Shown piece after piece: positions 3,994-33,426 of a stretch of DNA of 64,000 nt. Made by a program: the position numbers and the translations under genes. The notes beneath the pieces are model-generated. The model had not been told where the DNA came from, did not search any database, and worked only from the letters and a program-made list of their open reading frames with translations. The stretch is from Hyphococcus sp. (GTDB taxonomy: Bacteria > Pseudomonadota > Alphaproteobacteria > Caulobacterales > Parvularculaceae), in assembly GCA_028284345.1 (NCBI GenBank), contig JANQRY010000008.1:310001-374000 (forward strand), in the 5' to 3' direction. Within the stretch, counting starts at the first letter, position 1, and each line of letters begins with the position of its first letter.

Positions 3994-4757
3994 TCCGTTC
4001 CGTATCCGTGTCGCTCGATCACCGACGCGGCGTCATCGCTGTTCAGGAAAGCGACGAAGGCGCGCGCGGCGTCGTTTTCCGCCCCGCGCGCAAGAAGGAC
4101 GGCGTCCTGCCGGATCGGATCGTACATGTCCTGCGGCGGCGCCCAATAAGCGCCGCGCCGCGCCGCCGGCGCCGCGAGCACCTGCGACAGCGCGACAAAG
4201 CCAAGCTCCGCATTCCGTGTACGGATAAAGGCGAATGTCTGACCGATATTTTCGCCGAAAACGAGTTTGTCTCGCGTTGCGTCAGACAGGTTGAGCGCCG
4301 CGATCACCTGACGCGCCGCGGCGCCATAGGGCGCAAGGTCCGGATTGGCCATGGCGAGGCGCCGGTCGTCGCCGCGGCTGAGACGTTCGGGGCCGACCGC
4401 GACGCCGTCCGGATCCCAGAGCGCCAGCCGCCCGACGGCGTAGGTAAAGCGCGACCCGACGACAGCGGCGCCCTCCGCCTCAAGACGCATGGGACGCGCC
4501 TGATCCGCGGCAAGGAACACGTCGAACGGCGCGCCATTGACGATCTGCGCATAGAGCTTTCCGGTCGACCCGCTCGTTACGATGACATCGTGACCGGACT
4601 GCGCTTCGAAAGCCGCCTCCAGTTCGTCCAGCGTCGATTTGAAATTGGCCGCAACGGCGATGCGCGCCTCCCCCGCGAAAGCCGGCGCCACGGAAAAGGC
4701 CATCGCAAGAAGGCAGGAAAGCGCCCTATGCGCTTTGACTCCAAACACTGAAAGCAA
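3990..4757 (-). CDS. modA: Molybdate-binding periplasmic protein ModA
   Basis: A 255-residue solute-binding protein with a signal peptide (hydrophobic core LSCLLAMAFSVAPAFAG). The mature start ARIAVAANFKSTLDEL and then SGSTGKLYAQI are the family's oxyanion-binding segments. The first possible start is TTG 4757 with GGGAGG four bases upstream; GTG 4748 is an alternative with a longer spacer. First gene of modABC. I find no recognisable molybdenum-cofactor riboswitch in the 69 bases upstream. Confidence 0.92.
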   Translation of the reverse strand: MLSVFGVKAHRALSCLLAMAFSVAPAFAGEARIAVAANFKSTLDELEAAFEAQSGHDVIVTSGSTGKLYAQIVNGAPFDVFLAADQARPMRLEAEGAAVVGSRFTYAVGRLALWDPDGVAVGPERLSRGDDRRLAMANPDLAPYGAAARQVIAALNLSDATRDKLVFGENIGQTFAFIRTRNAELGFVALSQVLAAPAARRGAYWAPPQDMYDPIRQDAVLLARGAENDAARAFVAFLNSDDAASVIERHGYGTE

Positions 4758-4826
4758 GACGCCTCCCTTGAAACGCGGTCCGCGCTTCCCTAGCAGAATT
4801 TTTTCAGGATTGGGAAAGGCGCACGG

Positions 4827-5801
4827 CTATTGCGGCGTCAGGCACTTATCCAGCGAGGGCTGAGCGACGGGCGCGGCCACTCCCGGATTGGCGTCGATGA
4901 GGTCGAGATAGGATTCGACAAGGCTCGTATAAGGCGGCAGCGCGCCGTTATGGAGCGCGCCGTCAACCTCGGCCGCGCCGTGGATCTCAAAATGCACATG
5001 CACGGTCGTCGCCCGGGAGGACGCGGTCAGGAGATCGGAGACTTGCGCGAAGGGCTGGCCTTGCGTCACCGGCGCGCCGGTTTTGACCCAGTCGGGGACG
5101 GGCATCTGCACATGGAGGAATTTGTATTTCATGCCGCTTTCCGCCCCCATGATGTTGACCGAGATCGAGCCCACATGGCTGATCCACCCCGATTCCGGCG
5201 CGACCATCCAGTGAACGGCGTTCTCGCAAGTTTTGGGACGAAAATCCTGTCCCTTATGGGCCTTGCCGCCGGGGCAAAGATCGGTCGCGTGCTTGGCGTC
5301 GAGGCGAACTTCGCAGAAATTATCCCTCCACGGATAATCGAAATTGCGCGGGTCGTTTTCAGACCCGCCCGGCCCCGGCCACTGGCCGCTCGCATAACCG
5401 CCGCCGCCCTGGCCGAAAATCTGTGAATTGAGGAAAGCCGGCGCTTCGGCCAGCGGAAAGACCATTTCCGGGACGATCACCGACGGGTCGGTGACGCCGG
5501 TCGATCCTTTCACCGTCGACGAACCGGGCAGAAGGTCGCCCGGCGGCGCATGCCAGTCAAGCGGCAATTCAAAAACCGGCGCCGGCGGTTCAGGATCGTC
5601 ATCGTCTTCAATCGGCGGCGGGTCCGGCGCGTCATCGTCTTCGTCAACTGGCGGCGGCGTCTCATCCTCAACCGGCGGCGTATTGTCGGCCGGCGGCAGG
5701 TTGTCGGGCCGCGGCGGGCCTTCGCGCCCGCACGCGCTTATGGAAACCGCCAACACGGACATGGCGACGAGACGCAACAATTTCAGCTTCAGGGAGATCA
5801 T
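4827..5801 (-). CDS. LytM/M23-family lipoprotein with an acidic Pro-rich linker
   Basis: A 324-residue predicted outer-membrane or periplasmic lipoprotein: signal segment ending SISAC (lipid Cys 24), then a low-complexity Pro/Asp/Glu linker at about residues 28-75. The C-terminal half contains HKGQD (His 182, Asp 186) and HVHFE (His 268, His 270), which are the HxxxD and HxH zinc-ligand motifs of M23 endopeptidases, so it may be an active peptidoglycan hydrolase. Four Cys around residues 163-192 may form disulfides. Its ATG overlaps the stop of the upstream secreted protein gene (ATGA), so the two are made together. The start is fixed by that overlap. Confidence 0.8.
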   Translation of the reverse strand: MISLKLKLLRLVAMSVLAVSISACGREGPPRPDNLPPADNTPPVEDETPPPVDEDDDAPDPPPIEDDDDPEPPAPVFELPLDWHAPPGDLLPGSSTVKGSTGVTDPSVIVPEMVFPLAEAPAFLNSQIFGQGGGGYASGQWPGPGGSENDPRNFDYPWRDNFCEVRLDAKHATDLCPGGKAHKGQDFRPKTCENAVHWMVAPESGWISHVGSISVNIMGAESGMKYKFLHVQMPVPDWVKTGAPVTQGQPFAQVSDLLTASSRATTVHVHFEIHGAAEVDGALHNGALPPYTSLVESYLDLIDANPGVAAPVAQPSLDKCLTPQ

Positions 5802-31528: not shown

Positions 31529-31747
31529 GTTTTTATCCCTTATCGAAAAAAAATTATCGTTTTTCGGCAAAAAAAGCTTGCATCGTTTTTCAATAAGTGT
31601 ATATCGATAATCAACAAGACGACGGAACTACCGACGCACCTCAAAAGCCCGCAAAGAGGCAAAAAAAAGCGGCCGGACAAACCGACCGCTTAAGAAATCA
31701 GAATGAGTTGCGTCAATTCAACACGGGAAAAGAAAAGGAGAAACCCC
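31529..31747. promoter_or_regulatory. AT-rich divergent control region with TATCGATA palindrome
   Basis: This 219-base gap between rdgB and the micro-gene operon is strikingly AT-rich for the window. The perfect palindrome TATCGATA lies at 31602-31609, and half-site-like TATCG occurs at 31541 and 31555. A possible rightward promoter is TTGCAT (31578-31583), a 16-base spacer and TATATC (31600-31605), so the palindrome would overlap the -10 box. Binding by the HTH protein encoded at the end of the operon is an inference. Confidence 0.45.
31661..31691 (-). terminator. Terminator-like hairpin reading leftward inside the control region
   Basis: A stem of ten positions with one mismatch, AAGCGGCCGG (31667-31676) against CCGACCGCTT (31682-31691), has a five-base loop. 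Read on the minus strand it is followed by eight T residues (A run at 31661-31668). No minus-strand gene ends here, so it could stop an antisense transcript or shield rdgB from leftward read-through. Confidence 0.5.
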
Positions 31748-31882
31748 ATGTCACGCAAAAGCTCAACAGCGAACTTCGGCGGAATCGGCGGCATTGTCAA
31801 TGGTCTCGCGATCGTGATCACGATCACGCTGGTCGGCGCCGGCTATGTGACGGCGGTCGGTTCGTTCGCCGGGCTGGCCTGA
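31748..31882 (+). CDS. 44-residue single-pass membrane micro-protein
   Basis: Reads MSRKSSTANFGGIGG followed by a hydrophobic Gly-rich stretch (about residues 16-36) ending GSFAGLA. The shape is a basic, polar N-terminus plus one transmembrane helix. The ribosome site is unusually good: AAAAGGAG at 31733-31740 with a 7-base spacer to ATG 31748. Its stop shares one base with the next start (TGATG), so the two are coupled. I recognise no family. Confidence 0.6.
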   Translation: MSRKSSTANFGGIGGIVNGLAIVITITLVGAGYVTAVGSFAGLA

Positions 31883-32046
31883 TGGCCAGAATCGCCCATG
31901 CTGCGGCGGCGCTGGGGCTGATCGCTCTCGCCGCCGCCTGCCTGGTCGCCCTCGCCGCGCCCGGGCCGGGCGCCGCCGCGGACGGCGCGCCCATGACGGC
32001 GGTCGAGCCATGCGAGAGCCTTCTGTGCATGTTTGCGATCAGCTAA
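31882..32046 (+). CDS. 54-residue putative secreted peptide precursor with two Cys
   Basis: The N-terminus MARIAHAAAALGLIALAAAC and the hydrophobic run after it form a signal peptide with a likely cut near the GAAADG junction. The remaining 20 or so residues end VEPCESLLCMFAIS, with two Cys four residues apart that could pair. An alternative reading is a lipoprotein using the Cys at about residue 20. It is translationally coupled to the micro-gene before it and lies 39 bases before the first DUF2975 gene. No family is recognised. Confidence 0.55.
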   Translation: MARIAHAAAALGLIALAAACLVALAAPGPGAAADGAPMTAVEPCESLLCMFAIS

Positions 32047-32085
32047 GCGGCCGGACCCTGGATCGGCACATCGGAGGATAGAATT

Positions 32086-32604
32086 ATGCGTGCGATCGGA
32101 AAGGGCTCGCTGTCGTCGATCCTGGCGGTCGGCCTGCATGTAACACGCATTGTTTTGTTCATCGCGCTTTTCGGCCTCACCATGGCGATGATCTTTATGC
32201 CGCTCGCCTCCGGCGTCGGCGACATGGTCGCCGGCATGGAAAACGTCGACATTGACGGCGACGTTTCCGTCAGCCGCGGCGACTATTTTGACGTCGCCTA
32301 TAATTTTATCGCCGTCCTGGTGATGCTTTTCGTCGTCACCCGTCTGCTTGAGATTTTGAAGACGCTGCGTTTCGGCTCGCCCTTCGTGAAGGAAAACGCC
32401 GATCGTTTCCGCCAGGTCGGATACGCGCTGTTGATCGGCGAAGGCGCCAAATTCGTGTTCAATTTTCTGTCCCTCATCTTCGGCGCCGATCTCGATATCG
32501 ACATCGAACTGATCGCCTGGCTCGCCATTATCGCCGTCTTCGTCCTCAGCGAAGTCTTCCGCGAGGGCGCCCGCATGAAAGAAGAACAGGACCTGACCGT
32601 ATGA
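32086..32604 (+). CDS. DUF2975 membrane protein (first copy)
   Basis: A 172-residue protein with four predicted transmembrane segments (about residues 12-40, 68-90, 105-130 and 140-160). RFGSPFVKENADRFRQVGYALL and the C-terminal SEVFREGARMKEEQDLTV are the DUF2975 landmarks. GGAGG about 10 bases upstream supports ATG 32086. It overlaps the second copy by four bases. DUF2975 genes are commonly paired with a small Cro/CI-type regulator, as in Bacillus yoaS-yozG; their function is unknown. Confidence 0.82.
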   Translation: MRAIGKGSLSSILAVGLHVTRIVLFIALFGLTMAMIFMPLASGVGDMVAGMENVDIDGDVSVSRGDYFDVAYNFIAVLVMLFVVTRLLEILKTLRFGSPFVKENADRFRQVGYALLIGEGAKFVFNFLSLIFGADLDIDIELIAWLAIIAVFVLSEVFREGARMKEEQDLTV

Positions 32605-33194
32605 CCGCGCCGACGGCCGATACGCCTCATGCGGCGCAAGGCGCGGGCGATCGCTCGGTTGCGGTGCTGATAAAGGTCCTGCGCTACACGCGCATCGCGC
32701 TGGTATTTGTTCTCTTCACCGTGCTCGGAACGGCGGCGCGCCTGCCGTTTTTTCCGCTCCGTTTTGGCGGCGATCCCGCCGATCCGGAGGCGCGCTGGCC
32801 CACCGTCCATATTGGCGCGGCGGTCGATCCGGACATGACGGCGGCCGCGATCTATACGCAGTCGGCCGTCGAGGTCATTTTGATTGCGGCGGGCTTCTTC
32901 ATCATTTCTGAGATGCTTCAGCTGTTGCGAAACGTCGCCGGGGGCCATGCGTTCATTCGCGAAAACGGCGCGCGTCTTCGGCGCATGGGCTACGCCGGCG
33001 TCGTTGCGCAATTGTCCATTTACGCCGTGTGGATTGTGTCGCGGACCGTCGACGCCGCCGGCGTTGCGGCGGTTGACGGCCTCACCGTGGAAATCAGCCC
33101 GGCGCCGTGGATCATCATTCTCTGCGCATTCGCGCTCTCGACAGTGTTCAACGACGCCGCAGCGTTGAAAGAAGAACAGGATTTGACGGTTTAG
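32601..33194 (+). CDS. DUF2975 membrane protein (second copy)
   Basis: A 197-residue paralogue of the preceding gene with the same layout: four membrane segments, a loop GHAFIRENGARLRRMGYA matching the first copy's equivalent, and the same seven-residue ending EEQDLTV. It differs by a longer N-terminus and a larger periplasmic loop (about residues 55-85). The 4-base ATGA overlap points to equimolar production, so the two copies may form a heteromer. Confidence 0.82.
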   Translation: MTAPTADTPHAAQGAGDRSVAVLIKVLRYTRIALVFVLFTVLGTAARLPFFPLRFGGDPADPEARWPTVHIGAAVDPDMTAAAIYTQSAVEVILIAAGFFIISEMLQLLRNVAGGHAFIRENGARLRRMGYAGVVAQLSIYAVWIVSRTVDAAGVAAVDGLTVEISPAPWIIILCAFALSTVFNDAAALKEEQDLTV

Positions 33195-33195
33195 G

Positions 33196-33426
33196 ATGAC
33201 GATTTCGGTCAAATTGGATCGCGTGCTGCTCGATCGCGGCATGTCGCTGACGGAGCTCTCCGAGCGCGTCGGCGTGACGATCGCCAATTTGTCCATCCTG
33301 AAGACCGGCAAGGCCAAGGCTATTCGCTTTTCAACCCTTGAGGCGATCTGCAAGGAGCTGAACTGTCAGCCCGGCGACATCCTTTTTTTCGATGATGAAG
33401 ACGCCGTCGTCGAAGCGGCGGAATAG
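33196..33426 (+). CDS. Small Cro/CI-type HTH regulator (YozG-like)
   Basis: A 76-residue protein that is almost entirely one helix-turn-helix: RGMSLTELSERVGVTIANLS then RFSTLEAICKELNCQPGDIL, the pattern of the HTH_26/YozG group that accompanies DUF2975. It begins one base after the second DUF2975 stop. It is likely the operon's own DNA-binding switch, perhaps on the TATCGATA site upstream. The acidic tail DDEDAVVEAAE is free for protein contact. Confidence 0.85.
   Translation: MTISVKLDRVLLDRGMSLTELSERVGVTIANLSILKTGKAKAIRFSTLEAICKELNCQPGDILFFDDEDAVVEAAE

Follow-up and report, generated by a model that had tools for sequence, protein, structure and literature searches.

The window, by which we mean the whole 64-kb stretch of Hyphococcus DNA analysed, contains a rightward cluster of two microprotein genes, two DUF2975 membrane protein genes and a small helix-turn-helix (HTH) gene, preceded by a predicted promoter. 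The features of this locus are, from left to right:

31541-31554, minus strand: operator-like site with two mismatches, conserved
31556-31569, plus strand: second operator-like site with two mismatches, conserved
31579-31619, plus strand: predicted promoter TTGCAT-CGTTTTTCAATAAGTG-TATATC, with the putative operator ATCGTTTTTCAATA (31582-31595) within the -35/-10 spacer
31667-31691, minus strand: conserved hairpin with an A-run, in the shape of an intrinsic terminator reading leftwards, towards rdgB
31748-31882, plus strand: p44, a 44-aa microprotein with a single transmembrane (TM) segment, MSRKSSTANFGGIGGIVNGLAIVITITLVGAGYVTAVGSFAGLA
31882-32046, plus strand: p54, a 54-aa microprotein with a signal-peptide-like N-terminus (by eye) and C-x4-C close to its C-terminus
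32086-32604, plus strand: DUF2975-A, the core four-helix membrane protein (Pfam PF11188)
32601-33194, plus strand: DUF2975-B, an optional second DUF2975 protein (Pfam PF11188)
33196-33426, plus strand: HTH, a 76-aa HTH_26 (YozG-like) protein and proposed autorepressor

The p44 stop codon and p54 start codon overlap as TGATG, with the A common to both. DUF2975-A follows p54 after 39 nt, the two DUF2975 genes overlap by 4 nt and a single nucleotide separates DUF2975-B from the HTH gene, so that a DUF2975 gene is followed directly by an HTH_26 gene. All five linked frames lie in the places and order given by the original prediction. This had also described the 54-residue peptide as ending in CESLLC; the Cys pair is indeed close to the end, but the protein in the window finishes with CESLLCMFAIS. 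Both DUF2975 assignments hold, as each protein exceeds the Pfam gathering cut-off of 27 bits (A, 47.3 bits, E = 2.4e-12; B, 55.1 bits, E = 9.4e-15) and four helices are predicted for A, while the proposed YozG-like HTH is borne out by a Pfam HTH_26 match (E = 2.4e-21).

The DNA upstream of DUF2975-A was read in 30 loci (L003-L032), and an overlapping p44-p54 pair was present in 28 of them. Of the other two, L031 has p44-like and p54-like frames with no overlap between them, and L032 has a p54-like frame (CARALCGPLFY) with no p44 seen. Across the 28 aligned loci, p44 is always 44 aa long and p54 always starts inside the p44 stop codon (junction TAATG or TGATG), with p54 itself ranging from 47 to 55 aa. 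Eight p44 columns are invariant in these sequences (M1, V17, N18, G32, Y33, F40, A41 and G42), as are M1 and both Cys residues of C-x4-C in p54. The pN/pS ratio was 0.36 for p44 and 0.52 for p54, and for both genes pN was lower than pS in 378 of 378 pairs, these pairs being of related sequences and not independent. Both ratios come from uncorrected proportions and probably overstate the true values. The shifted-frame control, made for p44 only, gave 1.08 and 2.24 for the two frames. At the genome level, p44, p54 and DUF2975-A were each found in 27 of 28 own-genus genomes, the exception (G005) being an assembly of 830 contigs that also has no DUF2975-A match. Of 62 genomes in a family-wide profile search, 45 gave a p44 match and 33 a p54 match, the 33 including two (G029 and G075) with weak matches elsewhere in the genome, off the locus. 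The p54 counts are based on the profile, an overlap search and reading by eye; tblastn with the window p54 and default statistics reported it in just two of the 34 named loci introduced below (L094 and L120). Genus g6, which includes Amphiplicatus, was read at eight loci (L159-L166), all with both kinds of frame and a Cys spacing of 3-5 by eye, and the p54 profile matches three of nine genomes at E ≤ 0.01.

On this comparative evidence, p44 and p54 are conserved genes that travel with the DUF2975-HTH genes. Lack of conservation or non-coding substitution patterns had been named beforehand as grounds for rejecting the module, and these grounds therefore fall away. Neither window peptide matches a Pfam family at E ≤ 0.1, a Pfam scan of all 28 members of each gave stray matches only (one or two members, E 0.015-0.089), and p44 and p54 have no profile match to each other. 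The same substitution data bear on the idea that p44 and p54 act in cis as leader peptides, whose translation would control DUF2975 and whose products would be immaterial. Their first place in the operon, the stop/start overlap in 28 of 28 loci and a long leader with two conserved hairpins would suit such a role, but both peptides are conserved at the residue level with low pN/pS, a constraint that is absent from the shifted p44 frames, and we consider a purely cis-acting role very unlikely.

The locus has a stable chromosomal setting. The order hemW-rdgB (leftward), p44-p54-A-(B)-HTH (rightward) and MFS (leftward) recurs in 34 named Parvularculaceae loci (Marinicaulis, Parvularcula and Amphiplicatus), which came from a scan with KEEQDLTV as one of two motifs and are therefore biased towards that protein ending. 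Among these 34, rdgB was found in 32, p44 in 32 (E ≤ 1e-3), HTH in 34 and MFS in 28. The two rdgB misses (L095 and L109) are stretches that begin too late on their contigs, and MFS is absent from the stretch in L118, L121, L122, L123, L125 and L126. The p44 search missed L124 and L126, which lie on contigs of the same lengths as those of L166 and L165, and a p44-like frame is visible by eye in these last two. In 46 further stretches (L134-L166 and L213-L225), rdgB is present in 41 and divergent to HTH in 40; in L156, rdgB is present and the stretch is cut before HTH. No rdgB was found in L139, L152, L222 (contig end), L223 or L224, the last two having only distant HTHs. Among these 46, the divergent rdgB is seen in 9 of 9 stretches of genus g2 and in 15 of 17 from other families of the order. 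A type II toxin-antitoxin system would be a mobile, patchy two-gene cassette; here, the cluster stands divergent to rdgB in 32 of 34 named loci and 40 of 46 further stretches.

DUF2975-A was found in 52 of the 60 relatives searched. Its structural model (mean pLDDT 85.8, built from 44 sequences) predicts helices at residues 9-49, 64-95, 102-132 and 142-171, and has no PDB match at E ≤ 0.001; the sequence profile likewise has no PDB match at E ≤ 1. The N-terminus and the 86-110 loop are positively charged, and the 50-63 and 132-141 loops are acidic. Taken with the model helices and the positive-inside rule, this suggests that both ends of the protein and a conserved G-x-PF-x3-N loop are cytosolic, so that the most conserved stretches would lie where a partner of the HTH protein would need them. 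DUF2975-A and DUF2975-B both end in KEEQDLTV. The common EEQDLTV ending had been noted as a feature of the pair, and it is present, yet it is not special to these two proteins: the same tail closes DUF2975 proteins of other phyla, in loci found partly by that motif, and loci found without it show looser endings such as ENELTI, ESELTI and EDLEGTV. EEQDLTV is a tail of the DUF2975 family. The notion of a DUF2975 pair as a unit is not supported, as DUF2975-B was found in just 6 of 34 named Parvularculaceae loci, arranged A-B-HTH. A tree of DUF2975-A and DUF2975-B did not place B (two changes, long branches). Separately, a Bacteroides locus (L131, approximately 4059-5243) has adjacent DUF2975-like genes ending in KEEQDLTI and KEEQDLTV, which are followed by an 83-aa hydrophobic frame and HTH.

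The sole solved relatives of the HTH protein at E ≤ 0.01 are the VanU regulators 3tyr and 3tys in the PDB, which we take to be VanUg (E = 6.4e-07, residues 6-63). The protein nevertheless falls below the NCBIfam cut-off for VanU, with 38.3 of 150 bits, and all its other NCBIfam matches are also below cut-off.

The promoter at 31579-31619 is predicted from conservation: most loci of the family show a recognisable TTGCAT-CGTTTTTCGATAAGTG-TATATC whose spacer contains a palindrome, and a generic sigma-70 scan found no promoter here. Four operator-like matches were counted in the 64-kb window, against a mean of 0.71 in shuffles, none of 100 of which had four. The motif TATCG-N5-CGRTA, with up to one mismatch, occurs in the 750 bases upstream in 39 of 45 Parvularculaceae loci (25/30 and 14/15), against 1.7 expected from Markov shuffles (1.2 and 0.5) and 3 of 45 in equal-length downstream controls (3 and 0); loci from one family are relatives rather than independent cases (L136 and L137, for example). 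The motif was derived from Parvularculaceae sequences. In other families of the order it is present in 11 of 17 loci, 10 of them exact (0.3 expected, control 0), the upstream DNA of 10 of these 17, including L153, having been seen beforehand. Outside the order, 32 loci were scored; three without an HTH motif (L183, L185 and L186) were set aside to leave 29, and six that belong to the order itself (L175, L178, L179, L182, L188 and L189) and one repeat of L181 (L190) were dropped to leave 22, whose upstream DNA had not been seen before scoring. The scanned stretch covered 60-1500 bases before the HTH motif and includes the DUF2975 gene. A site was found in 14 of these 22 loci, 8 of them exact, where shuffles expect 1.7 per 29 rows and six control palindromes occur in 6, 2, 2, 1, 1 and 0 of 29.

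The exact or near sites outside the order include those of Bacteroidota (L128 and L132), Bacillota (L129, with three sites at 21-base intervals) and Fidelibacterota (L127). In 13 of the 14 loci, a site precedes the earliest DUF2975 start allowed, L177 being the remaining one; in L129, just a distant fourth site does so, and the three clustered sites lie between the starts that would give 235-aa and 211-aa proteins. At up to one mismatch, no site was found in 6 of 45 loci of the family, 6 of 17 from other families of the order and 8 of 22 outside the order (L130, L131, L133, L169, L176, L181, L184 and L187, of which L131 and L133 are Bacteroidota). Allowing up to two mismatches, ATCGTTTTTCGATA matches 34 times in its own genome, versus 4 for the reversed control, and three of the 34 lie within 55 bases of each other, all in this promoter. 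The original suggestion that the HTH protein controls the operon is backed by this conserved palindrome, a predicted operator, in the promoter. Two other operator-like sites near C4:260-262 kb are inside long frames and were dropped, and a search for a regulon with TATCG-N5-CGATA at one mismatch (93 matches versus 47 per strand in the control) was unusable.

The leader was aligned in 23 of the 28 loci (L008, L022, L024, L025 and L026 were omitted, L024 having no promoter match). The core pairs of the hairpin at 31667-31691 are kept in 23 of 23 aligned leaders; by number, terminator shapes in the window stretch do not exceed chance (2, against a shuffle mean of 1.3). A short hairpin at 31619-31640, close to where the transcript is predicted to start, shows a few both-sided changes in other loci. 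The RNA alignment has 12 consensus pairs, 3 of which are changed on both sides, with a covariation term of 0.05, and this weak covariation led us not to claim the leader as an RNA element. A small hydrophobic peptide behind a structured leader and a leftward terminator shape would also be the outline of a type I toxin-antitoxin system, in which p44 would be a membrane toxin and a leftward antisense RNA would end at 31691-31667. The tandem p44-like copies in two loci of genus g7 (L155 and L157) would fit such a system as well. However, a promoter scan found no leftward promoter, the three Rfam matches are all far below gathering scores and p44 stays within a single operon at a single place in the chromosome; we consider a type I system highly improbable.

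The peptides vary between lineages more than the regulator does. In genus g7, 43-aa p44-like genes precede DUF2975 and no p54 was seen; L155 and L157 have two of these genes in tandem, with a terminator-like hairpin before DUF2975. Genera g8 and g4 have one p44-like gene, and p44 matches the peptides of g4, g7 and g8 by profile (probability 97.5, E = 8e-12). A hairpin with a T-rich tail lies between the p44-like gene and DUF2975 in five of seven g4/g7/g8 loci; a sixth match (L158) overlaps the end of the peptide gene itself and L135 has none. The hairpins of g4 and g7 would favour the peptide over DUF2975 there. Among loci of the window's own type, a hairpin follows p54 in 4 of 28 and is weaker; none was found in the other 24 p54-A gaps, so an excess of peptide would not be general.

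Beyond these genera, family f3 has a 38-aa TM peptide in 12 of 80 genomes (counting that of the query), with 13 matches, of which 12 are followed by a DUF2975-type frame and an HTH motif; by profile, the f3 peptides do not match p44. The remaining match, at 1501-1617 of L205, is an f3-type 38-aa peptide that DUF2975 does not follow; its genome carries a linked copy as well (L203). Family f9 has 41-46-aa peptides in 3 of 79 genomes (own included), all three followed by a DUF2975-type frame and HTH motif, and in family f5 a 40-aa peptide lies upstream in L148. No peptide was found before DUF2975 in six loci of family f2 (L136-L138, L140, L141 and L147), nor, by eye, any convincing one in seven distant loci (Bacteroidota, Bacillota, Ignavibacteriota and Fidelibacterota); in L133, a hydrophobic frame of 38 codons begins with TTG and overlaps DUF2975. 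A search for upstream peptides with a C-terminal Cys pair in alphaproteobacteria had been proposed; such peptides were seen in Parvularculaceae only, and those seen upstream in f3, f5 and f9 have no Cys pair.

Genus g2 provides the strongest constraint on the mechanism. The DUF2975-A profile matches none of its 10 genomes, while the HTH is found in nine at 70-81% identity (not in G075). In four of the nine g2 loci (L213, L214, L217 and L218), a 37-41-aa TM micropeptide lies 77-167 bases before HTH; in the other five (L215, L216, L219, L220 and L225), HTH was found with no peptide. A micro-ORF control (ATG, Shine-Dalgarno-like triplet and hydropathy) passes three of the four peptides, L217 failing, and nothing in the five remaining loci, with a pass rate of 0-0.5% in shuffles. 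At one mismatch, an operator-like site was found in L213, L217, L218, L215, L220 and L225, and none in L214, L216 and L219. The g2 peptides are only suggestively related to those of g7 (probability 50.7, E = 1.6e-4). Peptide and DUF2975 may thus each be absent from a locus that keeps HTH.

This pattern weighs on two further accounts of the peptides. In the first, p44 and p54 would be small subunits of a DUF2975 membrane complex, much as CydX is a small subunit of cytochrome bd in the relevant passage of PMC4325964. The constant 44-aa length, the constant order p44-p54-DUF2975 and the position of p44 matches beside DUF2975 in the loci read, except for L156 (contig end) and L167 (a weak second match inside a 436-aa frame), all agree with this. 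However, the four g2 loci keep a TM micropeptide beside HTH where DUF2975 was not found, with homology to p44 that is only suggestive, and DUF2975-HTH genes occur with no peptide found in f2 and distant phyla; we regard a subunit role as unlikely.

The second account, close to the original suggestion of a peptide signalling or export/immunity module, has p54 (or p44) exported and DUF2975 as a receptor or immunity protein relaying to HTH. The signal-peptide-like N-terminus and invariant Cys pair of p54 would suit an exported peptide, and the logic resembles the SdpC-SdpI-SdpR circuit of Bacillus subtilis, which in the passage of PMC1626106 on this circuit likewise combines a polytopic membrane protein, an autorepressor and a small peptide. 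The syntenic neighbours here are hemW, rdgB and MFS, with no exporter, protease or other maturation gene among them of the kind that would adjoin the peptide gene in an Sdp-like system. The regulators differ too, SdpR being of the ArsR type and the protein here an HTH_26 protein. PADLOC gave matches to HTH only (best HTH_VI, E = 1.2e-6, others weak), and p44 and p54 show a purifying substitution pattern. A bacteriocin would be expected only alongside its immunity gene; in four of nine g2 loci, a micropeptide, only suggestively homologous to p44, stays with HTH where DUF2975 was not found, which disfavours both receptor-ligand and toxin-immunity readings. An export or immunity module is not supported, and signalling or immunity of this kind seems to us quite improbable.

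The account we tentatively prefer, with a little less than even confidence in it as a whole, is a vertically inherited, autoregulated membrane operon in which HTH is an autorepressor, DUF2975 its membrane partner and the microproteins co-regulated outputs. HTH would repress its own promoter through the TATCG-N5-CGRTA palindromes, to which it is predicted to bind; the autorepressor role is suggested by the position of one of them between -35 and -10, and the operator by its conservation across species. Upon a membrane or envelope signal, the acidic EEQDLTV-type tail of DUF2975 may hold HTH at the membrane, and repression would then be lifted, a logic proposed by analogy with SdpI-SdpR; the conserved tail could, however, do something other than hold HTH. 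As the first operon product, p44 would be a peptide with one helix in the inner membrane; p54, whose translation is probably coupled to that of p44, may be membrane-anchored or secreted and could carry a CX4C disulfide. Both would act in the envelope, an output role suggested by their first place in the operon and by gain and loss that are independent of DUF2975, with microproteins swapped or lost between lineages while HTH and operator stay. A broader and more doubtful proposal sees the YozG-type HTHs as a single ancient autorepressor family shared across phyla, with TATCG-N5-CGATA as its fixed operator. The family would read the membrane via DUF2975, and lineages would plug different membrane microproteins (p44, p54, the 38-aa and the 41-46-aa peptides) into that one promoter as interchangeable outputs, even without DUF2975.

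The gene pair itself has been catalogued before. YoaS is presumably a DUF2975 protein, and the Pfam DUF2975 model has matches in B. subtilis. In the passages of Makarova et al. 2009 (PMC2701414) that treat it, YoaS-like membrane proteins and Xre repressors form a conserved gene pair, listed with 32 cases, described as a 'likely permease' and left out of the toxin-antitoxin candidates since membrane components were unknown among type II systems at the time. Another DUF2975/HTH neighbour pair, cppC-cppD of Streptomyces cacaoi, appears in a passage of PMC7827011. The YoaS/Xre pairs resemble the present locus in joining a conserved membrane protein to a small HTH; the locus differs from both in its two leading microprotein genes, a DUF2975 gene that is at times doubled and a predicted operator, whereas the passages on YoaS/Xre and cppC-cppD mention neither microproteins nor an operator. 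The relevant passages of PMC2701414, PMC4326333 and PMC9239279 name YozG or YoaS in tables or annotations only. The original description of DUF2975 with a small HTH as widespread and uncharacterised agrees with our results, as the combination occurs in several phyla and our literature search found no functional account of it, mentions of DUF2975 being incidental. Among the matches listed for small proteins in Marinicaulis or Parvularculaceae, no title concerned these bacteria. Within the reach of these searches, the two microprotein families and the operator are undescribed. As the operator is predicted in Parvularculaceae and also in some Bacteroidota and Bacillota, gel shifts could be used to test the regulator, and two microprotein families of constant length, which show a stop/start overlap and an invariant Cys pair, offer a handle on the products of the module. 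A named strain, Marinicaulis flavus SY-3-19 (L104), carries this locus.
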